From Pseudomonas sp. TH31 (GTDB lineage Bacteria > Pseudomonadota > Gammaproteobacteria > Pseudomonadales > Pseudomonadaceae), in NCBI RefSeq assembly GCF_016650815.1, contig NZ_JAEKEZ010000022.1:1-64000 (forward strand): a DNA stretch of 64,000 nt, in the 5' to 3' direction. Positions 31,095 through 47,729 of the stretch are shown here, piece by piece. The notes under the pieces were generated by a model. It ran no database searches and was not told the DNA's origin. It worked only from the letters and a program-made list of their open reading frames with translations. Numbering within the stretch: position 1 is the stretch's first letter; each line of letters opens with the position of its first letter. The translations under genes and the position numbers were made by a program.

Positions 31095-31101
31095 AAAGTC
31101 G

Positions 31102-31185: not shown

Positions 31186-31198
31186 TCGTTCGATGCTG

Positions 31199-31399: not shown

Positions 31400-31403
31400 G
31401 GCT

Positions 31404-32600: not shown

Positions 32601-33200
32601 AATTTGTCTGGGGTCTGTCAAAGGTATGAGACGGCCAGGACGGCTTGTTTGACGGCTCCCGCATGGAATCAGCTTCAGACGCACATCCAGCGCCGGTATC
32701 GTCTCATGCCTGTCTCACATTCCGTCAAAGCGTGGTCAAAGTAGCGGGCACTCGACACCGTGTTGACTCCAACACAGTGTGTTGTTTTCAACACGCAGCA
32801 ACCTGATAAAACCTGACATTGGAGCGGCTGGCGCGGGTCATTCATGGGGTGTTTCCGCAAAGGGGGCATTCGACCTAGATCAGCTCCATTCATGGGGTTT
32901 GTTTCGCAACGCTCATTCAGCGTCGCTTTCGCGTGCATTGCACCTCATCCATGGGGTTTTTTCGCAAACCTACGTTTGGCCAGTGAAAAACAAAGCAATA
33001 CCGTGGAAACCACAGTGGAAACCAGCGACCGGCAACCGCTTGCATTGGTAACTTTCCATGGTAACTAGCGTGGTAACCACTGGCCGGGTTCGCACCAGCT
33101 TCGCGTAAGAGGGTGCGAACCAGAAGTGTGAACTTGGTGCTGGTACGCGTCGGCGGGCGCGTACCGATGGTGCGTACCAGTCTGCGTACCAATGCCAGAC
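32600..33200. repeat. Tract of locally repeated short words
   Basis: Successive groups of one motif repeated two to four times and then replaced: GTCAAAG (32617, 32725, 32735), GTGTTG/CAACAC (32759-32795), AAACCTGACA with AACCTGATA (32800-32819), CATGGGGT (see cluster B), GTGGAAACCA (33003, 33015), GGTAAC (33047, 33060, 33072), GGTTCGCACC with inverted GGTGCGAACC (33087-33121), and GCGTACC (33158, 33172, 33184). No gene is seen. Meaning unknown. Confidence 0.6.
32841..32972 (+). repeat. TTCATGGGGT repeats, cluster B (three units)
   Basis: Units begin at 32841, 32889 and 32948 (the last as TCCATGGGG). Each continues as T-rich sequence and CGCAA; unit two adds CATTCAGCGTCG. Spacings are 48 and 59 bases, nearly the same helical phase. 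With cluster A there are five units in the island. Confidence 0.7.
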
Positions 33201-33275
33201 AATTCTGTCTCAGAGTAAGCGTCCAGCACAGTCACCTATCCGAACGCTAAAACTGCCGCGCCAAGAATGCTTGAA

Positions 33276-33635
33276 TCAATCGTGCCCACAGAACAAATGC
33301 CCATCATCGTTTCCGAAATTACAGGTAGGGCAATCACGAAGCAAGATGGTTGTTCCATTACCCTTTGGGTCACCATGAACCTTATTGCAGACGCAATATA
33401 AGGCTTCGCATCCAGCGGTACTGCAAGTGGGTGTGTCGCGGAGATTCTGACAGCTACTGCAAGAATCTTTGTAACTCCCATCATAAGACATAGGGTCTGC
33501 TCGCACTGGGCAGCCACCCTGAGCCAGTGTTTTTTCTGGGTTGATTAGGTTGGGCTCAGGACGCTTGAAGTCTCCTCCTGCCGCTGCGCCGCTCCAAAGA
33601 AAAATGACAAGTAAGGCAGAAATGATTGATCTCAT
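33276..33635 (-). CDS. Cysteine-rich exported protein, cyanovirin-N (CVNH)-like
   Basis: 119 residues from ATG 33635 with GAGG upstream. A signal peptide (residues 1-20) precedes a mature part with ten cysteines (42, 59, 62, 71, 76, 81, 83, 102, 105, 116). The order GSYKDSCSSC, LYCVC, TTILLRDC, and FGNDDGHLFCG resembles the CVNH lectin pattern (SC..., L.A.C, I.L..., N.dG.L.C). The likeness is judged by eye. It could bind sugars at the cell surface or outside. It is flanked on both sides by the word-repeat tracts. Confidence 0.6.
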   Translation of the reverse strand: MRSIISALLVIFLWSGAAAGGDFKRPEPNLINPEKTLAQGGCPVRADPMSYDGSYKDSCSSCQNLRDTPTCSTAGCEALYCVCNKVHGDPKGNGTTILLRDCPTCNFGNDDGHLFCGHD

Positions 33636-33734
33636 TTTGCACCTCGTAGGGATGCGACATTGCGACTCTGGGGGACGGGCCTCCTGAGATTCTAGACCCT
33701 TCAACTCCCCCTGCTCGGCGATGAGCACTGCCGG

Positions 33735-34060
33735 TGATCGGTAAGCATCTGTAAAGGCTTCTGACCCACTTAGGTTATGCACGAATATAGGGCCGATTAC
33801 AGGTAAGCGTCTGGTGAAAACACCTGTCCCCAAAAATTCGGTCTAAGTGGTTTTGTGACCAGCGAAAAATGGCAACCAATGAGGGCAACCGCTCTTGGCA
33901 ACCATCACGGGTATCCGCCCCAGAATGCCCCAAGCCGTGGATGCCGGGCGACTTAGCCAGCGCCAGCGACTTAGTAAAACTTAACACTCTGTCGGCGCGA
34001 GAGCTTGTCAAAACCTGTCATTGAACGCGCACCAGAACCTAACAAAACCTAACTTTGTAA
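33735..34060. repeat. Second tract of locally repeated short words
   Basis: Groups in order: GGTAAGCNTCTG at 33740 and 33802; GGCAACC at 33871, 33884 and 33897; GCGACTTAG at 33948 and 33966; and AAACCT/GAACCT with GTCATT or AACTTT at 34010-34055, which matches AAACCTGACATT in the first tract. It forms the upstream region of the cyanovirin-like gene. The 485-base gap 33636-34120 holds no gene. Confidence 0.55.
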
Positions 34061-34120
34061 AGCACCATGGGAGTAGCTGCTTGAGGTGCCTCGGCCTGGC
34101 GGTAGGTTGACAGGCTCAAC

Positions 34121-34820
34121 CTATAACGGAAGTCTGATCCCCGTTAGGCGCCATGCAATTAAATCTCGCCGAAGGATAAACTGTGATGGGGCTCCCCCAT
34201 TTTTATCGGGGACCTCAATCACGAACTTGCTGAAACCTTCGTAACGCATATGGGCGTTCTCGAATGGCTTATTATCTCTAGTCGTAATATTTTTATCTGA
34301 TCCACCACCACCCGATATCAGCTTGCCCGGTTTCTCGCCTTTCATGAGTTCAACTAGTCCAGATGGCGTGACGAGAGTAGAAATCATTTTCTCTGCTATG
34401 CCACTTGCAAATGCCGTTGCTAGGGCTGCGAACGGATTATCCTTAAGCTCTGTTTTGGCTTTTGCCATGATGGAGGCGTTGACCTGCTCTTTAAGGTCTT
34501 CTCTTACGCGAGGGAAATCAATGTGTTCCTCCAGGGCTTCAGTGTCCTGAGCTTGAGCAGCCTGTCGAATTTGATAGACCGCTACGTATGGTGCCGAGAC
34601 AACCCCCGCCAGCGCTATAGCTGCTATACCAACCATAATCAGCAACGGCTTTCTTTGTCTTATTGAGGCGCGTTTATCGGGGACTGAGAGCAGCTCAGCA
34701 GCACTTTCGTTCCGCTGTTTGTGACAGTGCCTTGTTGTAATCCACGCCACACTCTGGGCATTTCAACGGATCGCCGAAATCGAACTGTGGAGCTTCATGG
34801 TTACACACAGGGCATTGCAT
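34121..34820 (-). CDS. DUF2939 membrane-anchored protein with N-terminal zinc ribbon, apparent frameshift
   Basis: From ATG 34820 (AGGAGG upstream) the frame gives MQCPVCNHEAPQFDF with a zinc ribbon (C3xxC6, C21xxC24) and stops after about 40 codons. The next frame carries a membrane segment (LLIMVGIAAIALAGVVSAPY) and a DUF2939 domain starting with YQIRQAAQAQDTEAL. Removing one base near 34709 joins both into 232 residues, the usual layout of such proteins. Here a base is gained rather than lost, so true decay is possible. Role unknown. Confidence 0.68.
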
Positions 34821-35057
34821 AAGGTTCCCTCCTAAAGTTTGATACTCGGATGGACTTTAGCATGCTGTATCAATTTGACAGGTCCTCCTCAGAGGCGAAT
34901 GAGCAATATCAAGGTATCTGGCGGCTACCCGATCATGTAGGTCATCATCCATGAGTGATGCCGGCCAGGGAGCCATTGGGGGGAAGAGCAGCGGCGACTC
35001 CCTGTGACGACTACGCTAAGTGGCGTATAGAACGACCCATGCTTCGAGGTGGCTCAT

Positions 35058-35291
35058 ATGGCAAGACGCGGCCGGACTTATCAGTGGCGAGACGAAAAGA
35101 TCGAAGAGGTAACGTCTGCTCGCACTGGCACTTCACGTCCCAAGCGAACCGCTGCGCCCCCTAAGTCCGCAAGGCTAGGCTTTCAAAATGGATTACTACT
35201 TTTCACTTTTTGTAGCGTAATCATGGTGTTTGCAGTGCCCGCGCTGATCGCCGTTTTATACGTTATTTTCTCTGTGATCTTTGGCGAGTGA
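35058..35291 (+). CDS. Small single-span membrane protein
   Basis: 77 residues from ATG 35058, with GAGGTGG upstream. A basic, soluble N-terminal half (MARRGRTYQWRDEK, KRTAAPPKSAR) precedes a long hydrophobic segment (about residues 46-74). Family unknown. The next gene starts one base after its stop, so the two form a unit. Confidence 0.6.
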   Translation: MARRGRTYQWRDEKIEEVTSARTGTSRPKRTAAPPKSARLGFQNGLLLFTFCSVIMVFAVPALIAVLYVIFSVIFGE

Positions 35292-35292
35292 T

Positions 35293-35679
35293 ATGAGTAA
35301 AAAGCTGATTTTTATTGCGTTGCTGGTTGCGTACTCCAGCTTCTCACAGGCTCTTGAAAGCGAGTATTACGAAAGCCAAAAAGATATCGAAAAAATCACA
35401 AATGAAATCCCGACAATTGTCGGAAGTCTTACCGACCGGGCAAGACTCAATGGAATCAAGATAAATTCTGTAGCTGTGATGAAATTTTCTAAAGCCGATA
35501 CTGAAGGAGATCCGGACACCAAGGATGGGGACATTGATTACAGCTTTGAAACCGACTCAAAAGAATGCACAGTGCTCGGTTCTGCCGGGTTTTCGTACAG
35601 GAATGGCAAATACACGCCGACAACAAGAACGGCACTATGGCTTTTGAAGGGCAAATGCCATGGGCCGGAGTTTCCGTGA
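35293..35679 (+). CDS. Exported hypothetical protein
   Basis: 128 residues from ATG 35293. A Sec signal (MSKKLIFIALLVAYSSFSQA) leads to an acidic mature domain with two cysteines near its C-terminal half (KECTVLG, KGKCHG). No family is recognised. Cotranscribed with the small membrane protein gene; followed by a clear terminator. Confidence 0.62.
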   Translation: MSKKLIFIALLVAYSSFSQALESEYYESQKDIEKITNEIPTIVGSLTDRARLNGIKINSVAVMKFSKADTEGDPDTKDGDIDYSFETDSKECTVLGSAGFSYRNGKYTPTTRTALWLLKGKCHGPEFP

Positions 35680-35706
35680 TCAACAAAGGCCGCCGGCAGG
35701 GATACC

Positions 35707-35745
35707 GACTGCCGAGGCATTGCGCTTCGGCAGTCGGGCTTTCTT
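35707..35745 (+). terminator. Rho-independent terminator
   Basis: GACTGCCGA at 35707-35715 pairs with TCGGCAGTC at 35727-35735 and is followed by GGGCTTTCTTCTT. It ends the rightward two-gene unit. Confidence 0.8.
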
Positions 35746-35887
35746 CTTATTAGCCCCTTGGTAAGGGGAAGGTTTGCCGTTCGAACCGGCCTTGGTACTT
35801 ACAGGCGACTTTAGCCTTCTCTATATTCAAAAACACCGCTCCGCCAGCAGGGTTCTTGGTGTCACTAAGCTTCGTATTCAGGTCCAT

Positions 35888-36874
35888 CTATTCACCTACT
35901 GGGATTTTTATCGTCTGAATGCCGTCGAGTTGAGGGTCGATGATGCTGTTGGCCGCGGCGATCTCGGTCCAGCGCGACTGATCCCCGTACGCGTCTGCGG
36001 AAACCTTCTGAAGGCTGGAGTTGCTGGTGATAACACTCGATACGCCATTCGCCAGCGGTCCGGACAGGACGCTCTTATGCATCCGCTCCAGCACGCTCTG
36101 CATCTGATAGAGCGGGACAAGCTGGGTCAGCGCAGCACTCTGGCGCATGACGTTGTTGGCGGCGATCGATACAGGGTTGCCTGGCACCAGCCCACCAAGG
36201 GTTGTAATGTCGTTCACTGACGCGCCCACTTGCGCAATAACCGACTGCACAACCGCTTGGGCGGCCACCAGCGGGCGAATCACCGTTTGCACCGTGTCGA
36301 TGGTGGCATTGGCAAAGCCCTGCACCTGAGAGACGGCATCCTTGACGGTATTGATCGACGAGGTGACGGCATCAGAATTGATGATGCTGGCCAATCCCAA
36401 TGATTCACCAATGTCGCTATTGATCAGTTTGTCGAGCGTGCCGGTCAGCGCGTTTTCCGTAAGCGGCGCATCGAGGCGCGAAACCACGGTCAATTCCAGG
36501 GTGTAGCGCCTGCGATACTCGAACTCAAACACCGGCACGAAGTTCGATAGGAGCACGCTGAAGTAGTACGAGCCAATGTTGAGGGAGAGCGGCAGGCCCT
36601 CGTCTCGCATGGTCTCCAACTGCGTGACACGCTCCTGCGCCGTAGCCCCAATGATCCAGCCTGACCACGAAATGTTGTCGTAGTCGACGCCCATTACATC
36701 AAAAATGCGCTTGCCGCCGACCAGCTTGTGCATGACGAGTTGCTGCTTGCCGGCGCCCGGGGTAGCCGACTCAGGAACCTCAAGTCCGGTGAACTCGAAA
36801 TCTCCCAAAATTACACGAGTGGCAAATGGGTCTCCGCCTGGGGCGAAGTTGTCCAGGAAGGTAGTGAAGCTCAT
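35888..36874 (-). CDS. Phage tail/baseplate protein with C-terminal LysM-like domain
   Basis: 328 residues. The N-terminal half (ILGDFEFTGLEVPESATPG, VMHKLVGGKRIFDVMGVDYD, then ISWSGWI) is the type found in phage proteins encoded next to tape-measure genes. The last 45 residues (VSADAYGDQSRWTEIAAANS, then IIDPQLDG) form a LysM-like motif as in T4 gp53-type baseplate wedges. It is the last gene of the leftward series and begins three bases after the tape-measure stop. Confidence 0.75.
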   Translation of the reverse strand: MSFTTFLDNFAPGGDPFATRVILGDFEFTGLEVPESATPGAGKQQLVMHKLVGGKRIFDVMGVDYDNISWSGWIIGATAQERVTQLETMRDEGLPLSLNIGSYYFSVLLSNFVPVFEFEYRRRYTLELTVVSRLDAPLTENALTGTLDKLINSDIGESLGLASIINSDAVTSSINTVKDAVSQVQGFANATIDTVQTVIRPLVAAQAVVQSVIAQVGASVNDITTLGGLVPGNPVSIAANNVMRQSAALTQLVPLYQMQSVLERMHKSVLSGPLANGVSSVITSNSSLQKVSADAYGDQSRWTEIAAANSIIDPQLDGIQTIKIPVGE

Positions 36875-36877
36875 CGG

Positions 36878-39061
36878 TTATCCCCTTGGGAGGGCTGTGC
36901 TAGGGGTTCCTGGCATCAGCATGCTGCGAGATGGGTCGAAGCCATTAGTGCTGGTTCGCGGGCGACTCAATGCCTTGGCTTGGTGCTCCGTCACAACTTC
37001 TGCAATCTTCTTGCCGTCCAAATGGATTGGCTGAGTCAATTGCACCGTTAGTGATTGCTTGGGCGGTATAGGGACCACCAGAGACTGATCTGACTTATTG
37101 GTGAGGCTTGGCAGTAGCGCCCAAGAAGGAGCCGATTTGCCTGCCGCCAACTGAGATGACGTGCCACGGTATTCATCGGCGAACGTCGTCTTTGATATCT
37201 GCATCGAAGTTGGCAGGATCATGTTTGCTCCCGCGATCAGCGTATTGAAGATCGTCTGCCAGCCAGTCAGAAAAACCAGAGCGAACGACTTGAAAGCCCC
37301 GCCGATATCGCCGTGGAACAGCTTGGTGACGCCGGTCTTGATGTCGCCCCACATAAGCTTCAAGGCGCCGCTGATCTCCTTCCAGTTGTTCCATACCAGT
37401 AGCGCCGCTGCTGCCAGACCAACCACAACCAGACCTACTGGGGTAAGTAGCAAGGTCAGTGGCGAGATCATGAAGTACAGAGCCTGACCAATCAGCTTGA
37501 TTGGCGACAGGAAGGCCATCAGGAAGCCGCGGACGAAGCCAGACGACATGATGAACCCGGCCATAGCCTTGGCAAAATCCAGACCGAAGACCAGTAGAGT
37601 GGTGCCGAACCGAGCAATAGCTGGAATCAGGGGTGCCAGCGCTGTGCTGGTGACGAACATCATGGCTTGACCGAGCAGCCAGAAGCCGCGCCCTGCGGCG
37701 ATGATCATGTTCAGCAGGCCGCCCGCGATCAGGAAGCTTGATAGACCAATAAGCGCATAGGTGAAAGCGGTGACATATTGTGGATTTACGCCCATCCATT
37801 TGGTGAGCGAAACAAGGCCATTGTTAAGCTTCGTTATTCCCGCAATAGCCATTGGCAGGACTTGATCGCCCAGCAGCAGCATTAAGTCCTTCCATTTTGC
37901 TGCCAGTTCAACCTCTTTGCCTGAAAGGGTTTTACGGGTTTTCTCCACCGAAGCATCAATGCCTAGGGCTTTATGCTGCGCTTCGAGCGAGTGGTGAAGC
38001 TTCTCAATGTTCTTGTCGATGAGGGTGAACATCGCGCCGCCGGTAGAGCCGAACAGCATGGCGTTTGACTGCCCAATTGCAGAGTCAGAGGTGATCCCCA
38101 TGCGCTTGTGCATCGGCATGATGATTTTTTCGTAGAACTCCGTTGGGTTCTGGCTGAACATCTCGGCACCGATCAGCGGGTTACCTTTGAACGCCTTGAT
38201 GCCGCCCTGCTTGTTCCAAATAACCTTGTTCTCATCCCAAATCTTGTTGGCTACAAGCTCGTGAGCGACCTGGTTAGGAATTTTGACGATGCCGTTCAGC
38301 CTGTTGTAGGCGGTCCTGATCGAGAAGCCGGCCGTCTGGCCTTTGAGCATGGTGATGATGGGTTCCATCATGGCAACTGCGTCATCACTCATGTTCATGG
38401 CCGCAATACCGCCGCGGGCCTTGAACTGGCGCAGTTGCTCCCAGTTCACCGAGCCACCGGAGGTCTGGGTCATCTTCCAGCCAGCATCCGCAAGCTCATT
38501 GAAACGCTTGGCCGATTTCAGACCGCCCGAGTCTTCGATGTAACGCATCATCGCCATGCTGCTGGTTTTCATGACGGCCTGTGTTTCTTCGCTCAGGCCA
38601 GAGGTGGCAAAAGCAATTTTGGAGAGCGTCGGCGCTGCGAGCTTGGCGCCGTCCAGCGCCTCCATGCCAGGCAATCCACTTTCCCGGAAGACGCCCTGCG
38701 CCTCGGTGAATAGCTTCATGTTGGTGGTGATGCTGGTGCCGATGGAGTTCATCCCTTTGACGAACCGCTCAGACTCCGCATTGACCGCATCAGACATGCC
38801 ATATAGCGAGAATTTGGCCATTTCCGTCTGGTACTTTTTGGCCTCTGCAAGCGGGGCTTTGAACAACGTAGCAATGCCCATGCCGCCGGCAAACATTGCG
38901 CCCCCAATGGCCGCTTGTTTGCCGATCGATGACAGTTTTGCGTTGAGTTTGTCGACATCCTGACCGGTCGTGGCCATGCTTTTGCTGATCAGCGCCATGC
39001 CAGCGCTGACGTGGTTGATCAGCGATAATTTTACGGCGACTGCGTATGCTTCAAATGCCAT
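36878..39061 (-). CDS. Phage tail tape-measure protein
   Basis: 727 residues, helical and Gly/Ala-rich, with hydrophobic segments clustered around residues 420-580, as usual for tape-measure proteins that set tail length. The N-terminal third has KSMATTGQDVDKLNAKLSSI and QAAIGGAMFAGGMGIATLFK, typical of TP901-type tape measures. At roughly 0.15 nm per residue it would match a tail near 110 nm. AAAGG precedes the start. No tube, sheath or terminator gene is nearby, so the product could only work with proteins from another phage. Confidence 0.82.
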   Translation of the reverse strand: MAFEAYAVAVKLSLINHVSAGMALISKSMATTGQDVDKLNAKLSSIGKQAAIGGAMFAGGMGIATLFKAPLAEAKKYQTEMAKFSLYGMSDAVNAESERFVKGMNSIGTSITTNMKLFTEAQGVFRESGLPGMEALDGAKLAAPTLSKIAFATSGLSEETQAVMKTSSMAMMRYIEDSGGLKSAKRFNELADAGWKMTQTSGGSVNWEQLRQFKARGGIAAMNMSDDAVAMMEPIITMLKGQTAGFSIRTAYNRLNGIVKIPNQVAHELVANKIWDENKVIWNKQGGIKAFKGNPLIGAEMFSQNPTEFYEKIIMPMHKRMGITSDSAIGQSNAMLFGSTGGAMFTLIDKNIEKLHHSLEAQHKALGIDASVEKTRKTLSGKEVELAAKWKDLMLLLGDQVLPMAIAGITKLNNGLVSLTKWMGVNPQYVTAFTYALIGLSSFLIAGGLLNMIIAAGRGFWLLGQAMMFVTSTALAPLIPAIARFGTTLLVFGLDFAKAMAGFIMSSGFVRGFLMAFLSPIKLIGQALYFMISPLTLLLTPVGLVVVGLAAAALLVWNNWKEISGALKLMWGDIKTGVTKLFHGDIGGAFKSFALVFLTGWQTIFNTLIAGANMILPTSMQISKTTFADEYRGTSSQLAAGKSAPSWALLPSLTNKSDQSLVVPIPPKQSLTVQLTQPIHLDGKKIAEVVTEHQAKALSRPRTSTNGFDPSRSMLMPGTPSTALPRG

Positions 39062-39264
39062 GTCTAGTTACCTTTGTAAGGACGGGTGCGAGGTTATTTC
39101 GAGACCTCGAACAGCCAGGGCGAAATAGCTCGTGGCTATTCGCATTTTGAAGATGCCTTTTATCCAATGTGTTCACCTCTCGTTTGTTGGGCCAATGGCC
39201 TGTCGTGTTGCTCAATGTCGCGACACATTTGCGAAAAACGAAAACGTCTCGCATCTCGAAATAG
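39062..39264. promoter_or_regulatory. Intergenic region before the tail genes, with several inverted repeats
   Basis: This 203-base gap, the largest break in the gene series apart from the repeat region at 40.2-40.5 kb, holds a CGAGGT/ACCTCG hairpin (39089-39109), a CGAAATAGC/GCTATTCG hairpin (39121-39142), a perfect TGTCGCGACA palindrome (39216-39225), and TTATTTCGAGA facing TCTCGAAATA 160 bases away. It is a likely site of separate control of the two tail genes. Confidence 0.45.
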
Positions 39265-39870
39265 TTATTTCTTAATGGTGCCTAGGGTTGGTGAGGCTTC
39301 GGGACAGAGGGGGGAGCCAGGTGAGAACGGACCGGGGAAAAGGTGCTCAGGACATTCTCTGATGAACGTGGAAATCGCGAGCTGACAGGCGTTGAACAGA
39401 GGTGCGGTGCTAGGTTCTTGGCCGCGGCAAGCGGCGCTGTCTTCAAGAGAGCAGGCGTACACCAGTTCGGCGATAGTGGTATAGCCAGCACTGCGCGCCG
39501 TCTCACGCTCCACTGTGTTGATCGCCAGCAGATCGCACAGTCGGTCGAACCCAAGCCCTAGTGCCAGACCTTCTGTATCCACCACTAGCGAGCGCCCGAA
39601 ACAGGCGAGCACGTTGCGTAGCTCATCTCGCTCATCGCAGCGGTGTTCGGCGAGTTGCTGCTCGATCTCTGCGATTGCACCAGAAGTAAATGGCAGGTTC
39701 TGGCGAAGGAGGTTCGCTTTACGCTCCATTGCCCGATGTTCGTTGTGAATGGATTCGAGCCTCTTACTAAACTCGCGACAGATACGGCGGGCAACGATCA
39801 GACTGGTACTCATGCTGGCATTGGGTTTTTTAGCGATGTCCGCGAGGGTGGTAACGAGACTGGTGCTCAT
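39265..39870 (-). CDS. Hypothetical island protein
   Basis: 201 residues from ATG 39870 with GGAGG upstream. The middle part is a coiled coil (KRLESIHNEHRAMERKANLL and EIEQQLAEHRCDERDEL). No known family. It overlaps the upstream gene by ATGA and precedes the tail control region. Confidence 0.65.
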   Translation of the reverse strand: MSTSLVTTLADIAKKPNASMSTSLIVARRICREFSKRLESIHNEHRAMERKANLLRQNLPFTSGAIAEIEQQLAEHRCDERDELRNVLACFGRSLVVDTEGLALGLGFDRLCDLLAINTVERETARSAGYTTIAELVYACSLEDSAACRGQEPSTAPLFNACQLAISTFIRECPEHLFPGPFSPGSPLCPEASPTLGTIKK

Positions 39871-40175
39871 GAGCGAGCCTCCAAAGGTGTGTTGTCGTAG
39901 CTGGCGCGCAGGTGAGCGCCAGCAGTGCAATGGCGACCGGTGGGTGCGTAGCAGGAGCTGCAAACCATGATGTGGCTCAGGTATTGGTCGCGGGCCTGTC
40001 GCCACTCGGGTGTGGCAGTGGCAGCGTTTGCGTGTGGGGCGGTGATGAACTGAGCAGGGCGCTCGACCCGAGTGGCCAGCACAAAGCGCGGACGAGACTG
40101 ACTATCCACTTTTGGCGATTCGGTACCGATGACGACTGGCGGCATGTGATCGAGCAGGCCAGAAAGGAGGCTCAA
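39867..40175 (-). CDS. Small hypothetical protein with a Cys cluster
   Basis: 102 residues from TTG 40175, favoured by GAGGTGG upstream; ATG 40145 is the alternative. CSSCYAPTGRHC near residues 72-83 could bind zinc. The part before it (EWRQARDQYLSHIMVC) is typical of small proteins in Pseudomonas islands. It overlaps the next gene by four bases. Confidence 0.58.
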   Translation of the reverse strand: MSLLSGLLDHMPPVVIGTESPKVDSQSRPRFVLATRVERPAQFITAPHANAATATPEWRQARDQYLSHIMVCSSCYAPTGRHCTAGAHLRASYDNTPLEARS

Positions 40176-40227
40176 GTCGCCACCTCACCCTGATTGCGCC
40201 ATTGCCCAAATGTGTCTGTAGAAAAAA

Positions 40228-40462
40228 ACGGGGGAACGGGGGAACAGTGGGAACAGCCAATGTTTCCGGGGCTTTCAGATGGGGATTCCGTACCCCACGT
40301 TTTTTGTGGGGAACAGTGATAACTGAACGTCAGGGGATGGGAGCACGCTTATATTCAAAAACATGTTTGTGTTCCCCCCTGTTCCCCATACATTCAATAA
40401 GGGGAACGGCTACAAGCCACGGTTTTACTGGCTGTTCCCCCGTTCCCCCTGTTCCCCACATT
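40228..40462. repeat. GGGGAACA repeat array, candidate replication origin
   Basis: GGGGGAAC/GGGGAACAG-type words occur at least four times on the plus strand (40231-40256, 40313, 40401) and at least five on the minus strand (40371-40390 and 40433-40458). Outer blocks GGGGGAACGGGGGAACAGTG and TTCCCCCGTTCCCCCTGTTC face each other. The array lies directly beside the DUF927 and Toprim genes. P4-type primase-helicases bind short direct repeats of a similar ...GAACA form at their origin; homology of the sites is inferred. Confidence 0.6.
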
Positions 40463-40509
40463 TATAGGTTCCTGTGAACTCGGGCATTCGTACTTAGGGG
40501 ATATGGTGG

Positions 40510-42311
40510 TCATGCGCCGCCCCCTTCGCTGTCCATTGCTTCGGGATCGATGACGTACAGGCGCGCCGACCCGCCGACTGGGATGCGGTACTTTTTGGTT
40601 TTGCGGCTATCGCGATCGGTGTCGCGCTTGGCCAGGGCTCCGCCAACTTCCAGCGCCTTGACCACGCGAGTTAGGCCGAACCCGTGAGCGGCCTCGGAGA
40701 GTGCGGACTTGTTGAACAGGTAGAGCCGCTTTCCCGCAACCAGCTCCCAGTAGCCGGCGCGGTTGAAGACCTTGGCATCCACCTCCGTGGCGTCGACATC
40801 GGAAAACCGGCTGCTGCCGTGTTTGTCGATGAAGTCGAGGATGCCGGCCAGGATCTGGCGATCCTCTGCGTTACCGCCACCTACACGTGAGAGCCATTCC
40901 CCATAAAGCAGGCGGCAGTCGGCGAGGGCGGTCCCTTGTTCCCAAGGCAGCAAGCCGTAAGCGATAGCCATCTCGCCGGCCAGCGCGATCACAGCGAACC
41001 GGTCAGCCACGCGTCCCGCCTGGGCGTTGTCCTCAACGAACTGGGCACGAATACCGTCAAAATCGCTAAGCAGGCCGGGCTTATCGTCGGCGGCGACCAG
41101 GCGCTCAACAAACGCTGGCCCAAGGTGGCCATGGTGGGCGCCTACCGCCACGGTGAGTTGCCGGTGAAAGTCTGCTCCCTCAAGCCCGTGCAACTCATCA
41201 AAGGCTCGATGCGTGCGGGTGCCGGCGTTCACGTCGACCATGCGCAGTTCAGCGCCAGCGTGGGCAGCATTCCCGGAAATGGCGGCGTGCTCAGAGAGCG
41301 AGCGCTCGCCACTGGAAAGCGTCAGCAACCGCCAGCTCAGTTTGGCGCGGCCTTCACGCTCTCGGGTCATGGTCCCTTTGCCCTGGCCATTGGCGAGGGA
41401 GTAGGCCATTTCCTGTACCCGCTTAGGGTCGGCGCGCTTGATCTCGTCCAGCGGCAGGATCGTGTCGTTACGGCTCGACGCTTCGATCTCAAGCCCGCCC
41501 TTGGTCATGTCCCAACTGGCGGCGAACACGCCGGGTCGCCCCACACCGACGAACCGATCAGTTGCGCCAGCGATTTGCCGCTCGAGCTGTCGCCTACCAG
41601 GTGAACACCGCCACCCAGCACGCCGATCAAACTCAGCAGCGGGCCGGCCAGCGAACAACCGATCGCCAGTGTCAGTACCGGATTGCCCGAGCACTTGGCC
41701 GCCACCTCCGACTGCCACAGCGCCAGCTCGCCGCGCCGACTGAACAGCACCTGAGCTTTGTTGCTGGCCTGGTACCGAACATTGGCACTGCCGATCGTTC
41801 GCCCGGGCAGTACGAACGCACCTGACTCATGCCAGCCGGGCCGGCAGGTAGTGGCGAACACTTCGGCGGGGTGCTGGTCGAGCAGGTACTCCATGAACGT
41901 GCCGCGCTTCTTCAAAGCGATGATGACGCCCATGCCGAACAAGGCGCGCCGGGCGTCCTCGCCGCTGCCGCCGAATACTTCCATGGCAATGATCCATTCC
42001 TTGATCCCGCCCTCTGTAACCAGACGCAGGAGCCGGCCCTCGCTGCCGTCGTCACTGTTGGTGGTCCGGGCCACGACCGTGACTGGGCTTGAGATCCACT
42101 CATCGCTGATCGGCCTGTCGGCGGCGTCGTTCTCGGCGTCGTCCTGATCCGCAGCGGTGCGCTTGAAGCTGTGCCAGTAAACGCCCGGGCGCAACTTGCG
42201 GCCGTTCTCGTTGGTCACCCAGTGCTCGTACACCGCCCAGCAAGGACGAGCAGGCGCGATGGTTGCGGCTTCTGGCCGAAGGTTGATCACGTTGGTATCA
42301 GGCTTGGCCAT
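40510..42311 (-). CDS. DUF927 replication helicase-like ATPase, one apparent frameshift
   Basis: Island replication protein. From ATG 42311 the N-terminal part includes GVYWHSF and a DUF927 core with VHLVGDSSSGKSL (Walker A). The frame breaks at 41531: restoring one base (CC to CCC) joins GSSVWGDP to GVFAASWDMTKGGLEI, giving 600 residues. The C-terminal third holds a domain ending PVGGSARLYVI that resembles a winged helix. Such proteins accompany Toprim primases in P4-like satellites. Its start overlaps the Toprim gene by 14 bases. The break is again a homopolymer loss. Confidence 0.85.
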
Positions 42312-43162
42312 TGGCGAGCTTCCAGTTTGCGAGGTCGTTGAAATCGGTAAGGTCATCGGGCGAACCTTCTGGCCATTCGGGGAAGGCCACCTCGGCACCC
42401 ACCGCTGCCGCGGCTGCGTTCGCTGCTGTGCGTCCCGGGTTGCCGTCGGTGAGCCGGTCGTCGTCGCCGGCTATGACGATTGGCTGGTCCGGGTAGCGAG
42501 CGCGAAGGCCTATCGCCGCCTGGATCAGGTTGCCCGCGTTCATGGCTGCCGCAACGACGTAGCCGCCGTGCTGGTGGAGGCTGGCCCCCGTCGCCCATCC
42601 TTCGCAGATGCAGAGCACGGAACCGGGCTCGATGATGCCTAGAGGCGAGTACGTGCCCTTCACGCGGCCACCAGGCAAGAAGCGCTTGGCGCCGTCGGGG
42701 GCGATTCTCTGCAAATTGACCAGACGGCCATCGAGGTACAGCGGTACGAGTAGATCAGCGCCGCGCTGGCGCAGACCGTGGGAGCGAACTCCTTTGGCGG
42801 TGAGGTATGGGTGATCTGGCGAAGCGCGCCGAGCGTTGCGCCACCAATGATTAGCCCTCTCGGCGGCCTGCTGCTGGCGCCGGAGTTGCTCGGCTTCGCG
42901 CTGCCGCCGTGCTTGATCAATTCGCTCGCGGATCTGCGCCGCCTCGCGAGCGTCCACCGGTTCGCGGCTACACCAGGTGCTGGCGGTTCCGGACTTCCAA
43001 CTGCCAAACGCACCAGAGGCGATCCTGTCCAGGTACAGGACGTACGGCCTTGTCGTCCGGAACGCGGAATCTGTGAATGGCGCTATCGGGAACAGGCAGC
43101 CAGTCGAGCGAGCCATAAACAGCCTGGAGCGCATCACGAAACAGGATCGCTGCGTCATCCAT
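42298..43162 (-). CDS. Toprim primase-like protein, apparent frameshift
   Basis: From ATG 43162 (MDDAAILFRDALQAVYGSLD) to TGA at 42298. The Toprim core is plain: CICEGWATG supplies the catalytic Glu, VIAGDDDR the acidic DxD pair, and DDLTDFNDLA the C-terminal motif. The middle has a long basic coiled segment (QARRQREAEQLRRQQQAAER). The N-terminal frame is left near 43047-43050; deleting one G (AAGG to AAG) links RVPDDK to PYVLYLDRIASGAFGSW, giving 287 residues. Together with the DUF927 protein it would start replication, tasks joined in one chain in P4 alpha. Confidence 0.83.
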
Positions 43163-43430
43163 GACTAGCGCTCCCAGCGAAGACTCGGCAAACCCGGCCA
43201 TTGTTTACGGCGTGCCAGTGCGTGATGTCGTCGATGGATTCAACGAGACAGGCTGTCACCTGAGCGTCGACGCTACGCATAACTACGCGCCCGCACTCGG
43301 CGTCAGACTCCGTCAGGAACGGGCCAAGCAACGCCTTCAGCGCTTTCGGATGGGTCACATAGAACAGCTCTGTGGCTTTTTTCGGGCAAGCCGATCCCGT
43401 TGGCGCCGGCTCGCCATTTTGAATTTTCAT
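43155..43430 (-). CDS. Hypothetical island protein
   Basis: 91 residues starting MKIQNGEPAPTGSACPKKAT. No family is recognised. Its end overlaps the start of the Toprim gene by eight bases, so it is translated with it. Similar small proteins often precede primases in Pseudomonas islands. Confidence 0.6.
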   Translation of the reverse strand: MKIQNGEPAPTGSACPKKATELFYVTHPKALKALLGPFLTESDAECGRVVMRSVDAQVTACLVESIDDITHWHAVNNGRVCRVFAGSASHG

Positions 43431-43450
43431 GTGCTTAAACCTTTATCGAA

Positions 43451-43975
43451 TCAGCAATTCACGGGAGTCGCCGACGCTGTGCGCTGGCGAGAATCGGGGC
43501 GTGGCCCCTCAGGCAACCGAAGCTGCGTCGCTAAGTGGCGAACGCGTGATTGTCCAAACAGCATCTGGTTGACCTGTGCCGCTTTGTCAGACCACCGTTC
43601 ATGATCCGGGCCGTGACCTATGCGGTTAGTCACAACCCATTCCGGTAGCTGTCTACGCGCCCGCATTTCGTTGAGCATGGTCCACCATGTCAGATAACGG
43701 GTGCGCTCCAACTCCATCAGATCAATGAGGCTCTGACACGCATAGGCGCATGGATCGAGGTCGTCTCCCTGTTGAATCTCGTCGACGCCAAACAGGGCCT
43801 GATTGACGATGATTCTCTCGAGCAACGACTCCTGATAGTCGGCATCGCTACCAATGTCTTGGGCGCGAACCCACTCCGGCAACTCGTTGGTGATTCGCAA
43901 CTGATTGAGGACGCCCCACCACAGAGAGGCGTGTTCTCGTTCGGCGCTGATTGACGTCGAAAGCAGGCGGCTCAT
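43451..43975 (-). CDS. Hypothetical protein with an internal tandem duplication
   Basis: 174 residues made mainly of two related halves. Residues 11-63 and 89-141 both follow the pattern E....WW..LN.....(E/Q)LPEWV......G.D........N(Q)..LFG, with W19W20/W97W98 and LPEWV at 32 and 110, a 78-residue period. The C-terminal tail is basic and probably disordered. No known family. It overlaps the upstream gene by ATGA. Confidence 0.65.
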   Translation of the reverse strand: MSRLLSTSISAEREHASLWWGVLNQLRITNELPEWVRAQDIGSDADYQESLLERIIVNQALFGVDEIQQGDDLDPCAYACQSLIDLMELERTRYLTWWTMLNEMRARRQLPEWVVTNRIGHGPDHERWSDKAAQVNQMLFGQSRVRHLATQLRLPEGPRPDSRQRTASATPVNC

Positions 43976-44190
43976 TGGGCACCCCCTTGCGAGGCAATCA
44001 GGTCGTCGAGAAGCTCCGCCCAGGCCATTGCGGTGTGCTGCGCCATGACGGCAGTAACGCGGGCGACGATAATGGGTGTGGTGGGCGAGGCGATGAGGGC
44101 AAGCGCGAGGCTCAGTAGAACGAGGATGTCTTGCACGTCGCTTAGGTCATCGGCTTGGGAATTGGCGGGCATGAGGATAGGGGTGTTCAT
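43972..44190 (-). CDS. Small hypothetical protein
   Basis: 72 residues with a central hydrophobic part (VLLSLALALIASPTTPIIVA), possibly one membrane span. It overlaps its neighbours on both sides by ATGA. Family unknown. Confidence 0.55.
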   Translation of the reverse strand: MNTPILMPANSQADDLSDVQDILVLLSLALALIASPTTPIIVARVTAVMAQHTAMAWAELLDDLIASQGGAQ

Positions 44191-44348
44191 ACGGCACCCC
44201 CATCAGCTTCAAGAGCGCGGGCGATGACCATGTTGGCGTTGTAGCGGGCGAGGCGAGTGGAAAGGGACGAGTTTGCGCGGAGAGCGCTCAGGGCCATGCG
44301 GCGGTGAGCAAAGGCGCGAATTTTTGATGGAATGAGGGCTTGTTTCAT
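44187..44348 (-). CDS. Very small basic hypothetical protein
   Basis: 53 residues from ATG 44348, which has GGAG at a good distance. The sequence MKQALIPSKIRAFAHRRMAL is basic and helical. The open frame reaches back to 44669, but that part runs over the Ash-like gene and shows no ribosome site. It overlaps the next gene by four bases. Confidence 0.55.
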   Translation of the reverse strand: MKQALIPSKIRAFAHRRMALSALRANSSLSTRLARYNANMVIARALEADGGAV

Positions 44349-44362
44349 GGGTGTAGCTCCGT

Positions 44363-44623
44363 TTACTTCATTGGAGCCACTCCAATCTGCCGCCAAGCAG
44401 AGAAGGGTGGCGAGTTGCACAGGATTGGCGGACCGGGGTAAACGGAGCCCGGCGCACCCGAAGGTGCTCCTGCGCAACCCGCCATAACACGAGAATGCGA
44501 GCACAAAAAAAGCGCCTGCAATCGTAATGGGGGCGCTGTTGCGCCGTTTACTATTCGACCCGCCAAGGTCGTTGTCAGCAATGTGACAAAGGAAACCATA
44601 CCGGCGGGCGTGATTGCTGGCAA
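44363..44623 (-). CDS. Ash/Icd-like small protein of P4-type satellites
   Basis: 86 residues. The core SHSRVMAGCAGAPSGAPG is the hallmark of the Ash/Icd-like family found in the leader region of P4-like elements, before the replication genes. The N-terminal half (VSFVTLLTTTLAGRIVNGAT) also fits. Start uncertain. Relatives have been linked to cell-division inhibition or immunity, but the role is not settled. Confidence 0.6.
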   Translation of the reverse strand: MPAITPAGMVSFVTLLTTTLAGRIVNGATAPPLRLQALFLCSHSRVMAGCAGAPSGAPGSVYPGPPILCNSPPFSAWRQIGVAPMK

Positions 44624-44665
44624 GAGAAGTTATAGACCATTCATCGCAGGGCATGAGCATAGTCG

Positions 44666-44968
44666 TCATACGGATACCCCGGCGGGCGGGTTGGTGCTGA
44701 GGTAGTACAGCGCCATGCGGCCGTGACTCCGACCTTGATCGTCAGTCAAGGTCAGGCGGTGGGTGAGGATCTTGTGTCCCAGGGCGCGCAGCTCGTTGAT
44801 GCGAGCACCAGGGCGAACAATGTTCAACTCGCGAACGGCGGTGAAGGTGTCAATCGGACCGGCTTTCAGGCGCTCCAAAAGGCGAGCACGTTGTGCGGTT
44901 CCGCTGGTATTCTCTACGTGAGTATTTTCGTGGCTGGCCTGTTGGTCGGCCATTTTTTTGTCTGTCAT
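44666..44968 (-). CDS. Helix-turn-helix protein
   Basis: 100 residues with a winged-helix pattern: AQRARLLERLKAGPIDTFTA, VRELNIVRPGARINELRALG, HKILTHRL. The type is common in prophages and satellites next to AlpA genes. It starts directly at the stop of the AlpA gene (44969), in the same unit. Confidence 0.75.
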   Translation of the reverse strand: MTDKKMADQQASHENTHVENTSGTAQRARLLERLKAGPIDTFTAVRELNIVRPGARINELRALGHKILTHRLTLTDDQGRSHGRMALYYLSTNPPAGVSV

Positions 44969-45235
44969 TTATGCAGCCTCCCCACGCAGAGCGATGCGTT
45001 GGCGCACCCAGGCCTGGACCTCGGCCAGCACGAAACCTACCGGCGAACCCCGCGACTTGCTGTTGCTTAGGGGGACCGGGCGGGGAAAGGTGGGGTCGTC
45101 TTTGAGCCGTTTGTACACGGTAGGACGTGCGAGCCCAGTGATGGCTTCCAGATCTGGCATGCGGATCAGAGTTATCGCTGGATCGAAGTTGTGAGCTGCT
45201 GCAGATGGTAGGTGCTGTGCGTGTATGGCTTGCAT
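44969..45235 (-). CDS. AlpA-family regulator at the head of the replication series
   Basis: 88 residues from ATG 45235 (GGAAGC upstream). ITLIRMPDLEAITGLARPTV followed by YKRLKDDPTFPRPVPLSNSK is the AlpA helix-turn-helix and wing. As first gene of the series leading to the replication and tail genes, it is the best candidate for their control. Confidence 0.82.
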   Translation of the reverse strand: MQAIHAQHLPSAAAHNFDPAITLIRMPDLEAITGLARPTVYKRLKDDPTFPRPVPLSNSKSRGSPVGFVLAEVQAWVRQRIALRGEAA

Positions 45236-45332
45236 TGTGCGCTTCCCGTAATAGCTGGAGATGATGGGAGACACAATGCTAAATTTTAAGCCTTGCCGGC
45301 CCTATTGGGATTGAGCAAAACCCCATTGGGGT

Positions 45333-46235
45333 TTACCGCTTCTTGCGATTTGGCCCTGCAAGAAACTTGACGATCGTCTCGGCGCTCGCCGGTAGTTCCA
45401 AGCCATGGGTCGCCGCGGCCTGTCTCAATATCTCTACAGCTTTATAGGGGGCGCTGAGGTCAATGCCAGCCATCGCAGAAAGCGACGCGATGATCTGATG
45501 TGAGCTTTCCCTTTCGGTGGGCGTGAGTTCAGCCTTGATCGAGCCTCCGAGATGCTTACGCTCGAAGGCGATCAATTCGTCTTTTCGAATTACGATTAAG
45601 CAGGCATCGGGAAAGCTGGTTTCCCGGTAGTAGGCATAGATGCTCTCATCAATAACCGGCTCATAGTCGGCCAGCCCGTTCTTCAGCATCTTGCTGATGT
45701 CCACCAACATTGATGGATCGGCCTTGACCGTCAAAGACGGACTTCCAACAACTGAATCGCTGCTTACTACTCCAGTAGTATCCTTGGCCGCGTGACGAGC
45801 TTTGTCCACAAACTTGAATTTGAGGCTGATACTCAGAACCTCCATTACGGAAGTTTTGTCTTCGTCATGCAGATACAAGCCAGCGGATGAAAAAAGGCCG
45901 TTTCTGGGCTTTAGGCCTTTTGACTCTCGATAAAGCCTCTCGAGCTCACTCGCGCCAACCCCGTAGGCTGCGAGATCCCATACTCCATTTATCCGCACTG
46001 CTTCACTAGAGCCATCACCCAGCATCAGATTTTTTTCACCATCTACGATTTCTGTCTCGAACTCCATTTCCCTCGCAATGAGTGTGTCGTCAATAAACAC
46101 GGATAATTGAAGATGGTTGTCCAGAGCTAGTCGAAGTATGTCTGCCTGGGTGACCGACTCTTTAGCGGTAGTGGAAAACCGAGTCGCGGCTTCATCAAGA
46201 GTCAGCCACTCTTTGAGCATTAACAACTTTTCCAC
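45333..46235 (-). CDS. Cargo protein of unknown function
   Basis: 300 residues. The start WLTLDEAATRFSTTAKESVT, then QADILRLALDNHLQLSVFID looks like a winged DNA-binding region; DACLIVIRKDELIAFE sits near the middle, and the last 40 residues (MAGIDLSAPYKAVEILRQAA) resemble a domain seen in several Pseudomonas prophage proteins. Lower GC than the flanks. It lies between the integrase and AlpA genes, a usual place for island cargo. Confidence 0.6.
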   Translation of the reverse strand: MEKLLMLKEWLTLDEAATRFSTTAKESVTQADILRLALDNHLQLSVFIDDTLIAREMEFETEIVDGEKNLMLGDGSSEAVRINGVWDLAAYGVGASELERLYRESKGLKPRNGLFSSAGLYLHDEDKTSVMEVLSISLKFKFVDKARHAAKDTTGVVSSDSVVGSPSLTVKADPSMLVDISKMLKNGLADYEPVIDESIYAYYRETSFPDACLIVIRKDELIAFERKHLGGSIKAELTPTERESSHQIIASLSAMAGIDLSAPYKAVEILRQAAATHGLELPASAETIVKFLAGPNRKKR

Positions 46236-46323
46236 GGCGAGCCTCGCAAGTATCGATGATGCTGTATATGCAAACAGTGGCTTTGAGTCTATATGCGTCT
46301 ACGCGAACAATGGAAGGCCCGCC

Positions 46324-47565
46324 TCAGGCCCTTTTTCCAAAGTCACCCTGAACAACCACGCCACCAGCCAGTCCGTCGAGGTAGTTCGCATACCATTGCA
46401 TCATCGCCGTGCGCTGGGCCAGATACTGGGCTTTGTTGTAAACGCCAGCAACGCCAGGTTTCTTGTGCGAAAGCTGGGCCTCGACATGATTCTCGTCGAA
46501 TCCGTTTTCGTTGAGCACTGTTGAAGCGATATGCCTGAAGCCGTGGCCAGTCTGCCGCCCCTCGTATCCCATTCTGCGCAGTGCCATGAGGAACACCGTG
46601 TCGCTCCGCGGTTTGGTGTGATCGCTGCGACCTGGGAAGAGAAGGGGATAGCTGCCGGTGTAATGACGTAGTTCCTCCAGCGCGTCGATCGCTTGGGAGG
46701 AAAGTGGCACCAAGTGCTCAAGGCCTTTCTTGCGGCCTTTACGCTCGACGGGAATCGTCCAAATTTTCTTGGTGAAGTCGAACTCAGACCACCGGGCCTC
46801 GCGTAACTCACTGGGGCGCACGGCGAAGAGGCTCAGCAGCCGCAGACCTAGGCGCACGTCGTGGGCATGGGGGTACGCTGCGATGGCGCGTATCAGGCCG
46901 GGCAGTTCATCCGGCGACACGTGGGCGTAGTTCTCGGCCTTGCCGGACTTGAGATATTTTTGCAGACCTTCAAGCGGGTTATGAGTTGCCCGGCCGGTTA
47001 CCCTGGCCAGGTCGTAGACATCTCGGCAGTACGAGCGAACCCGGCTCATCTGCTCGAGGATTCCCTGCTGCTCCATGCCGCGAAGAAACTCCATCCATTC
47101 GAGCGGGGTGATCTCTGCATATGGGCGCTTACCGAACACGGGGAAAACATGGCGCTCGAAGGCGCCCATGATTCGCTTCGATGTTCCTGCGTCCCAGTTG
47201 GTGAGCCGTGAGGCATACCACTCCCTTGCTAGCGGCTCGAAAGTCTCGCCGGCAGTGTCCCTTTCTGCTTTTTTGCGAGCCTGCTTTGTGACGATCGGGT
47301 TCTTGCCATCAGCGGCGTCGGCGCGTAGCTCGGCGGCTTTCTGCCTGGCTACCGATCCGCTCACCTCTGGGTAACCGCCCAGCCCAAGCCATGACCATTT
47401 CCCATCGGGCTTTTTGTATCGAAGCTGCCAGGACTTTTGACCGTCAGTTTTCACGCGGAAATAAAGGCTGCTCCCATCGAGCTCGCGATACTCCTTGGTG
47501 TCAGGCTCTAGCCCGGCCAACGCGGTGTCGGAGAGGGGGCGGCGCTTGATCTCTGAACGCTTCAT
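46324..47565 (-). CDS. int: P4-type tyrosine integrase
   Basis: 413 residues from ATG 47565. The N-terminal DUF4102 arm-binding part reads LPDT-like ALAGLEPDTKEYRELDGSS, then LYFRVKTDGQKSWQLRYKKP. Catalytic residues are visible: Arg in LFAVRPSELREARW, His/Arg in GHGFRHIAST, His in LSHKKPG, and the Tyr nucleophile in VAGVYNK. It sits next to the 3' end of tRNA-Met, its attachment site. A TTG start at 47589 is possible. Confidence 0.94.
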   Translation of the reverse strand: MKRSEIKRRPLSDTALAGLEPDTKEYRELDGSSLYFRVKTDGQKSWQLRYKKPDGKWSWLGLGGYPEVSGSVARQKAAELRADAADGKNPIVTKQARKKAERDTAGETFEPLAREWYASRLTNWDAGTSKRIMGAFERHVFPVFGKRPYAEITPLEWMEFLRGMEQQGILEQMSRVRSYCRDVYDLARVTGRATHNPLEGLQKYLKSGKAENYAHVSPDELPGLIRAIAAYPHAHDVRLGLRLLSLFAVRPSELREARWSEFDFTKKIWTIPVERKGRKKGLEHLVPLSSQAIDALEELRHYTGSYPLLFPGRSDHTKPRSDTVFLMALRRMGYEGRQTGHGFRHIASTVLNENGFDENHVEAQLSHKKPGVAGVYNKAQYLAQRTAMMQWYANYLDGLAGGVVVQGDFGKRA

Positions 47566-47571
47566 CTGACC

Positions 47572-47644
47572 TGTATCCCTTCGGTTCAATTATTTGCCGA
47601 GGATACACAGTGGGATACATGGAGGGAAGGTATAGGGGGATACA
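47572..47644. repeat. GGGATACA repeats near the integrase start (arm-site candidates)
   Basis: AGGATACA at 47600 and GGGATACA at 47612 and 47637 on the plus strand, and an inverted copy at 47572-47579. The first pair repeats the 12-base spacing of the pair at 28504/28516 at the other end of the island. Confidence 0.55.
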
Positions 47645-47663
47645 ATGAGGAACAGCCAGAAAC

Positions 47664-47692: not shown

Positions 47693-47729
47693 TTTTGATT
47701 TATAGACATCCTGAGACATCTGTAAATCG

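Follow-up and report, generated by a model that had tools for sequence, protein, structure and literature searches.

Satellites are known to reshape the capsids of their helper phages and to redirect packaging, and enterobacterial P4, whose genes include sid (capsid size), psu (polarity suppressor) and delta (transactivator), takes the tail of its helper whole. Why, then, would a P4-like satellite encode tail proteins of its own? The question is raised by a 64,000-nucleotide stretch of the genome of Pseudomonas sp. TH31 (contig NZ_JAEKEZ010000022.1, positions 1 to 64,000; hereafter the window, to which all coordinates given without a locus name refer), where genes for a tape measure protein (TMP) and for a protein ending in a LysM domain stand in one island with satellite replication genes. 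An earlier note, made from the sequence alone, had read positions 35888-43162 as a P4-like satellite with two tail genes of its own, and had named a decayed prophage merged with a satellite as the alternative. Our analysis points to a phiAH14b-type satellite carrying two core genes of a contractile tail, and we give a somewhat better than even chance to the reading, based on analogy, that these genes replace the helper versions and so produce chimeric tails with a satellite-specific delivery core.

Phage origin and intactness of the tail gene pair

The two tail genes of the island are the following.

36878-39061, minus strand: TMP, 727 amino acids (aa) (phrog_28, E 1.1e-16)
35888-36874, minus strand: 328-aa LysM-ended protein (phrog_21362, E 2.3e-95)

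Over its full length, the LysM protein shares 76-81% identity with its counterparts in three prophages, a match well beyond chance, and it is 69-84% identical to 46 IMG/VR copies. Its relatives were collected from 53 loci, three of them from a 199-genome sample of the genus, four from GTDB species genomes and 46 from IMG/VR (the handles L015 and L006 denote one locus). All 53 display a tail-module context, and a sheath was matched in 46; the contigs of the remaining seven (L024, L026, L037, L047, L051, L056, L060) start a few kb from the pair and have baseplate genes in each case. The satellite Toprim, DUF927 and phrog_7215 genes are absent from these 53 loci within at most 10 kb on each side. 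In the prophage L008, the neighbours of the pair were named by PHROGs as sheath, neck, baseplate wedge and fibre families, while a tube gene was not identified by this naming. The TMP is 65-76% identical to phage TMPs in eight loci and 27-54% identical in the other 43 of the 51 loci with a match; judging by this spread, the protein occurs as several alleles, of which the window carries one that phages carry too. The TMPs of these 51 loci measure 634-768 aa, and the seven closest alleles 676-707 aa from the aligned start.

Similarity of the DNA to the donor phages begins at the ATG codon of the TMP gene in all 47 high-scoring segment pairs that reach this end (39 at 39061 and eight at 39052). 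At the other end it falls within 35869-35913 in 52 of 53 pairs, 49 of which end at 35869-35882, just past the stop codon of the LysM gene (35888-35890). No pieces of neighbouring tail genes were found beside the pair in the DNA comparison with the 53 phage loci, and by these boundaries it is a clean two-gene cassette moved into the satellite. Both reading frames are open throughout, and the truncated remnant that the earlier note had considered is thus not what the locus holds. The ratio of nonsynonymous to synonymous substitution rates (dN/dS) is 0.07-0.13 between the window and phage copies (0.07-0.11 for the TMP) and 0.05-0.16 between phage copies, synonymous sites being near saturation, so that a recent loss of constraint could be missed; as far as sequences tell, the substitution pattern of the pair resembles that of functional phage copies.

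The LysM protein is laid out as a gpU-like N-terminus, a helical middle and the C-terminal LysM domain. Its N-terminus gave a weak match to P2 gpU (Pfam Phage_P2_GpU, residues 24-102) below the Pfam cut-off, and its LysM region matched two PDB chains at E 0.11-0.21. The same order of a tube-like start, a helical middle and a C-terminal LysM domain is described for gp25 of phage Milano, the counterpart of the pyocin baseplate centrepiece, which is expelled by the moving tube (PMC10811340). By analogy, the window protein may be of the same centrepiece type, judging from the order of its domains, one weakly matching profile and a structural model of low confidence; weak profiles and this model are likewise what would place it with the Milano gp25 and pyocin 'Ripcord' and LysM 'glue' proteins of that paper.

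The island as a satellite of the phiAH14b type

The backbone of the island and its borders are listed below.

46324-47589, minus strand: tyrosine integrase (Pfam Phage_integrase, E 1.7e-20)
44969-45274, minus strand: AlpA-type regulator (Pfam Phage_AlpA, E 2.3e-10)
42298-43158, minus strand: Toprim part of the primase (Pfam Toprim_3, E 1.9e-9; 61-94% identical in related loci)
40510-42398, minus strand: DUF927 helicase in two frames, 42398-41505 and 41718-40510 (Pfam DUF927, E 9e-42 and 2.8e-14)
39265-40005, minus strand: 246-aa phrog_7215 protein (E 6.6e-37), directly before the cargo slot
28504-34095, minus strand: left-end satellite backbone, blastn stretches alike in phiAH14b and other satellites
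28424-28441, plus strand: left attachment site, GTACTTGGTGG-TACACAG, one base less than the right copy (from the G005 junction)
47730-47748, plus strand: right attachment site, GTACTTGGTGGCTACACAG, entering the 3' end of tRNA-Met (from the G005 junction)
47735-47811, minus strand: tRNA-Met, its 3' end overlapped by the right attachment copy

The gene of the 246-aa protein led to phiAH14b (KU708005, 16.8 kb), a mitomycin-induced satellite found in capsids of the siphophage-like phiAH14a in the Antarctic Pseudomonas sp. ANT_H14, for which mobilisation by the helper was proposed from co-induction and shared capsids, and homologues of this pair of elements were found in other Pseudomonas genomes (PMC4936722). 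The same source reports an integrase, AlpA and primase common to P4 and phiAH14b, and states that no cII, gop, psu or sid homologue was found in phiAH14b. The window island, small like P4, shares with phiAH14b the backbone order of integrase, AlpA, Toprim, helicase and phrog_7215 genes as well as the left-end DNA. The Toprim protein is 88% identical, the DUF927 helicase 90-98% (compared with p16 along its length, in two frames, with 90% identity for residues 1-272 and 98% for residues 258-600) and the phrog_7215 protein 48%, whereas the integrase is only 38% identical. Left-end blastn similarity to the satellite L102 amounts to 84% over 1279 bases, and that to phiAH14b to 79% (401 bases) and 86% (239 bases), so that the tail pair is flanked by satellite backbone, with the left-end DNA on one side and the leader of the slot, next to the phrog_7215 gene, on the other. 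Each of the two elements carries a tail gene in the same slot, being tail assembly protein I with a lipoprotein in phiAH14b and the myophage TMP with the LysM protein in the window. In the genus, 48 of 398 genomes contain a match to the phiAH14b helicase with an E value of 1e-100 or better, and phrog_7215, a family of unknown function in PHROGs, has matches at E 0.001 in 45 of the 398, the genome under study being included in both counts.

The island spans positions 28424-47748 (19.3 kb) and is integrated in tRNA-Met, with an attachment repeat at each end. In a relative genome, G005 (locus L151), the site is empty, and the sequence corresponding to 25137-28452 is joined directly to that of 47730-51542. 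The repeat pair was found through comparison with this empty site; repeat searches within the window alone had missed it, the left copy being one base short. The junction reads GTACTTGGTGG(C)TACACAG, the bracketed base being absent from the left copy. tRNA-Met is also present in the upstream flank of L158, L159 and L160, whose integrases are 91-96% identical.

In the island, no match was obtained to the terminase, portal or capsid proteins of three reference phages, although versions unlike these could escape the comparison, nor to the sheath, hub, wedge and neck proteins of the donor-type myophages, taken from the phage loci and the references. Considering the backbone homology to phiAH14b, the attachment pair and the lack of a capsid, portal or terminase match in these comparisons, the island is, by its sequence, a phiAH14b-type P4-like satellite of Pseudomonas, in which no tail, capsid or packaging gene was detected apart from the tail pair. 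The classification proposed in the earlier note is in this way upheld, as is its gene series on the minus strand with Toprim, DUF927, AlpA, TMP and LysM, while its 'Ash-like' gene is the 246-aa phrog_7215 gene, which gave no Pfam match at E 0.01, and the element is larger than the 35888-43162 given there, since the attachment pair and the empty site extend it beyond the tail pair and replication genes. Conversely, the merger of a decayed prophage with a satellite is disfavoured: donor similarity ends at or near gene ends, satellite backbone flanks the pair on both sides, no sheath, hub, wedge or neck gene was matched, the attachment pair encloses the whole, and the dN/dS values lie in the range of phage copies.

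Genes in the cargo slot of related satellites

What related satellites carry in the slot downstream of the phrog_7215 gene was surveyed in 52 helicase-bearing loci, the window included (L095 and L106 are probably one element, their genes being 100% identical). Regions around 34 of 49 phrog_7215 places were taken in, three of 54 helicase rows were left out (one in G014 and two in G246), five loci without helicase (L099, L119, L123, L124, L126) were excluded, and several of the surveyed loci are shortened by contig ends.

Tail assembly protein I is present in 24 of the 52 loci (for L097 the phrog_32 family was checked). A siphophage TMP (phrog_24) occurs in three, namely L118, L133 and L104, the last of which carries it alongside tail assembly protein I; the TMP of L118 is 39.5% identical to that of phiAH14a, with only phage Medea1 ranking above it among the matches listed. 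An uncertain case, counted apart, is a 1282-aa TMP of L121 that lies 7.2 kb down, past a transposase-like open reading frame (ORF) and near the contig end. Five loci carry podophage proteins of the DNA-ejection or internal virion type (L122, L129, L137, L141 and, by its cluster with L141, L131). Together with the window pair, delivery genes are thus carried by 32 of the 52 loci (33 with L121), and these 32 all belong to the 45 closer loci, none being among the seven loci whose helicase is 38-56% identical. Restriction of the slot to delivery genes therefore appears, from these gene contents, to be a tendency of the closer satellite group.

As a reference control, 44 head, packaging and tail proteins of the siphophage phiAH14a (its second tail assembly protein I included), the podophage UFJF_PfDIW6 and the myophage-type prophage L008 were compared with the 52 loci. 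The only matches were to the TMP, both phiAH14a copies of tail assembly protein I, the lipoprotein, the window pair and, from the podophage, its lysozyme and its giant protein, which is matched at 82-83% identity in L137 and L141. None of the 52 loci matched the terminase, portal, capsid, connector, tail terminator or minor tail proteins of these three phages, nor their sheath, hub, wedge and spike proteins or the phiAH14a fibre. Outside the common clusters the slots hold 101 further ORFs of at least 150 aa, of which 24 were scanned with PHROGs and the rest compared with the 44 references, a coverage at which virion genes could be missed. A full structural module, which the earlier note had envisaged in related islands, was seen in this slot in none of the loci surveyed. 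As to the recurrence of the tail genes in capsid-less Toprim/DUF927 islands, the exact pair is confined to one locus of 52, and it is other delivery genes that recur in the slot.

Several slots have particular contents. Tail assembly protein I is doubled in tandem in L064, L107, L113 and L114, and phiAH14a has a second copy (p32) outside its tail module. The podophage ejection blocks (L137:9814-18140 and L141:1512-10266) comprise an internal virion protein (in L141), a lysozyme-type protein and a 2037-aa giant protein; neither satellite matched the tubular or spike reference proteins, and small and chromosomal genes follow downstream of the blocks. The slot of L107 (11685-15302) contains a putative 1205-aa SIR2-like, defence-like protein recognised by reading.

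Tail assembly protein I and the DNA route

The history of the most frequent slot gene, that of tail assembly protein I, was followed in a tree of 98 sequences, of which satellites contributed 27; it was built without identical rows, rows with stops and rows of at most 150 aa (phiAH14a p84 was not kept). Satellite and phage labels change three times over this tree against about 24 times in shuffles, and the satellite copies form a few satellite-only groups; the bootstrap had not converged, some branches are long, and the phage rows are the best 80 of 335 IMG/VR hits. Among these best 80, 79 lie near phage tail genes and none near a satellite helicase. The satellite-only groups suggest that the tail assembly protein I genes of satellites are old rather than fresh captures.

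TMPs and the internal proteins of podophages leave the particle during ejection. For lambda gpI, a plug at the tail tip below the tape measure with predicted transmembrane helices has been described, which descends on opening (PMC11101478), while according to older work cited in PMC4936722 tail assembly protein I is not in the mature tail, and opinions differ. The common trait of most slot genes is a place on the route of the DNA, the lipoprotein and a fibre-like protein of L131 being excepted.

Other features of the island and quality of the assembly

The remaining features of the island are as follows.

45333-46235, minus strand: 300-aa protein, function unassigned (no PHROG match; 24% identity over 256 aa in satellite L129)
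44666-44968, minus strand: winged helix-turn-helix protein (Pfam HTH_39, E 3.1e-14; 52-92% identity in many related loci)
43451-43975, minus strand: 174-aa phrog_38072 protein, function unassigned (81-84% identical in satellites L127, L128 and L129)
39219-39253, minus strand: slot-entrance inverted repeat, read by eye, imperfect in the window
34121-34750, minus strand: 209-aa cargo protein (ORF only)
30760-31092, minus strand: second AlpA-like small regulator of the left end, a putative name (sequence cluster with L127; DNA similarity to L127 and L128)

About 200 bases separate the start of the TMP gene from the stop of the phrog_7215 gene, and the sole minus-strand ORF of at least 60 aa in this stretch (67 aa, 39051-39254) overlaps a conserved hairpin leader. 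This inverted-repeat leader between the phrog_7215 gene and the slot is common to nine relatives by blastn, and an inverted repeat was seen by eye at the same place in L064, L095-L098, L100-L103, L106-L110, L113, L114, L116 and L122. An example is CGCGCCACGTTTT...AAAACGTGGCGCG; it is near-perfect in relatives, with paired changes (C-G to A-T) between satellites. From its position and form it could be an operator, a terminator or an insertion site.

The DUF927 helicase gene is split over two overlapping frames, and by reading of ORFs the first residues of Toprim lie in another frame, up to about 43201. Likewise, two of the 15 chromosomal ORFs compared with G005 are frame-split in the window, a putative prfA and a TPR protein gene, frameshifted at 60224-61305 and 57267, respectively. 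Assembly indels are thus sufficient to explain the split primase-helicase, without this being proven, and the satellite replication genes may carry real frameshifts. Elsewhere in the window, a putative MksBEF/Wadjet-like condensin operon was recognised at 3868-8739 by reading of ORFs.

Proposed chimeric tails and alternative explanations

The closest known counterpart is PLE11 of Vibrio cholerae, which has genes for a TMP, a chaperone and a baseplate hub, and whose particles contain its own TMP and hub instead of those of the helper; in these particles the tail is shortened by about 10 nm, transduction falls by about 99.9% when tmp is lost, and these chimeric tails were reported in 2026 as a new mechanism whose benefit was left open (PMC12987554). 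PLE11 and the window satellite are alike in encoding a TMP together with a protein of the baseplate centre, but not the remainder of the tail. They differ in that PLE11 adds a tail assembly chaperone and Rta, and in that its helper is the lytic phage ICP1. Putative tmp genes were also reported in PLE-like elements and in capsid-forming phage-inducible chromosomal islands (PMC12987554, Extended Data Fig. 10 legend for the latter), which resemble the window island in this TMP and differ from it in forming capsids, the island having no capsid, portal or terminase match to the three reference phages. PLEs are the one satellite family for which tails made chimeric by a satellite TMP are demonstrated (PMC12987554).

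By analogy with PLE11, we suppose that on infection or induction of a helper the satellite would replicate by means of its own Toprim/DUF927 primase-helicase, while its TMP and LysM protein would displace the helper versions during the building of tails from helper tube, sheath, baseplate and fibres. Chimeric tails of satellite-specific length and with a satellite-specific DNA-delivery core would then be borne by the particles with satellite DNA. Expression and incorporation of the two proteins, exclusion of those of the helper and the benefit are what we infer in this scheme; the benefit might consist in escape from helper exclusion or anti-TMP defences, or in a different route through the envelope. 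A wider proposal, which we put forward tentatively and hold as short of probable, is that the slot as such is a DNA-delivery module: the particle shell would come from the helper, and the satellite's own parts would open the way for the DNA, these being a TMP and centrepiece in contractile tails, a TMP or a tail assembly protein I plug in siphophage tails and ejection proteins in podophage particles. Since other DNA-delivery genes recur in the slot, more is explained by a delivery route specific to the satellite than by tail length.

A number of observations weigh against chimeric contractile tails or against the wider proposal. Unlike in PLE11, none of the ORFs beside the TMP was identified as a tail assembly chaperone, no chaperone model having been searched; the fold predicted for the LysM protein has low confidence (predicted local distance difference test score 51); the exact pair was seen in no other satellite (one of the 52 loci); and the primase and helicase are frame-split, so that, if the splits are real, the element may not replicate itself. 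Not all slot genes encode parts that are ejected: the lipoprotein, which adjoins tail assembly protein I in phiAH14a, occurs in 16 loci, and the slot of L131 also has a 152-aa protein matching short tail fibre families. In three of the seven distant relatives, L144-L146, the slot contains head genes instead (a scaffold/protease at L144:10184-10984, a major head protein at L145:8798-9817, and L146 by its cluster with L144; helicase 56% identical), and the podophage internal virion proteins A and B had no match in any of the 52 loci. As to helpers, a sheath of the donor lineage was not matched in the genome of the strain itself, in a search without a positive control, and a resident helper of this lineage was rejected on this result. 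Among the 22 genomes whose satellites carry tail assembly protein I, three have a close phiAH14a portal (at least 79% identity), against 21 of 398 overall (p 0.10), and none of the five genomes with podophage-type satellites has the portal that matches that type; co-occurrence of helper and satellite is accordingly not significant, with none for the podophage type. Finally, the authors who noted tail assembly protein I in both phiAH14b and phiAH14a saw only tail-less particles (PMC4936722), and such particles also fit interference.

The genome does contain a prophage on contig C29 (L249, G000:C29:1-19900) whose genes include a terminase-like one and those for portal, head morphogenesis, capsid and connector; the portal, head and connector genes are related to those of phiAH14a (the connector 90% identical). 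It has no match to the tail reference proteins and, from its gene content, is possibly a head-only or short-tailed element.

Such interference is the substance of the alternative that survives best, unlikely as we find it: the tail proteins would be weapons, which by excess or mismatch poison the tail assembly of a helper or competitor and protect the host population, like Tai and Tab. Satellites, P4-like ones among them, indeed carry tail-assembly inhibitors (PMC11364771), phiAH14a/phiAH14b heads were seen only tail-less (PMC4936722), and the slot holds defence-like cargo elsewhere, such as the SIR2-like protein of L107. However, the window proteins are full-length, with dN/dS like that of phage copies, and are not fragments or new folds; a satellite that depends on tails would hinder its own transfer; and the capsid, connector and sheath parts of the reference phages, which would be equally poisonous, were not found in the 52 loci.

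Less probable still is that prophage-satellite recombination left the pair behind as a passive remainder without function. Uniqueness of the pair among the satellites seen, the frame-split replication genes and the absence of a donor-lineage sheath match in the strain's own genome would agree with this, but both donor ends lie at or near gene ends, both genes are intact with dN/dS near 0.1 (subject to the saturation noted above), and functionally similar genes recur in the same slot of related satellites. That the TMP alters only tail length, the LysM protein being a fitting end piece, is very improbable, for although the window TMP is 20-51 residues longer than the seven closest alleles and PLE11 tails are shorter than those of the helper (PMC12987554), it lies within the range of the 51 phage TMPs, and tail length gives no account of what sister satellites carry, namely podophage ejection proteins or tail assembly protein I.

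Implications for the satellite family

TMPs in satellites (PMC12987554) and tail assembly protein I in phiAH14b (PMC4936722) are already published. In the open-licence literature, covered by titles and the starts of abstracts, no TMP or ejection proteins were described in Pseudomonas P4-like satellites, and what appears to be new here is the occurrence of a TMP in this satellite family, together with the family's range of delivery-route genes. If the slot is a delivery module, satellite particles would enter cells by a route proper to them, for example one that evades exclusion by a resident helper prophage, and entry specificity would be a satellite trait evolving independently of adsorption. 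The recurrence of delivery genes in one slot makes the question why satellites change tails a testable one, directed at entry rather than at adsorption or length, and phiAH14b with its helper phiAH14a offers a described pair as an experimental starting point. Taken together, proteins of the delivery route, belonging to three tail architectures, recur in a single slot of a satellite family that was recognised by its helicase in 48 of 398 Pseudomonas genomes, and the occurrence of comparable proteins in this same slot of many close relatives suggests that such satellites customise how borrowed particles deliver DNA.

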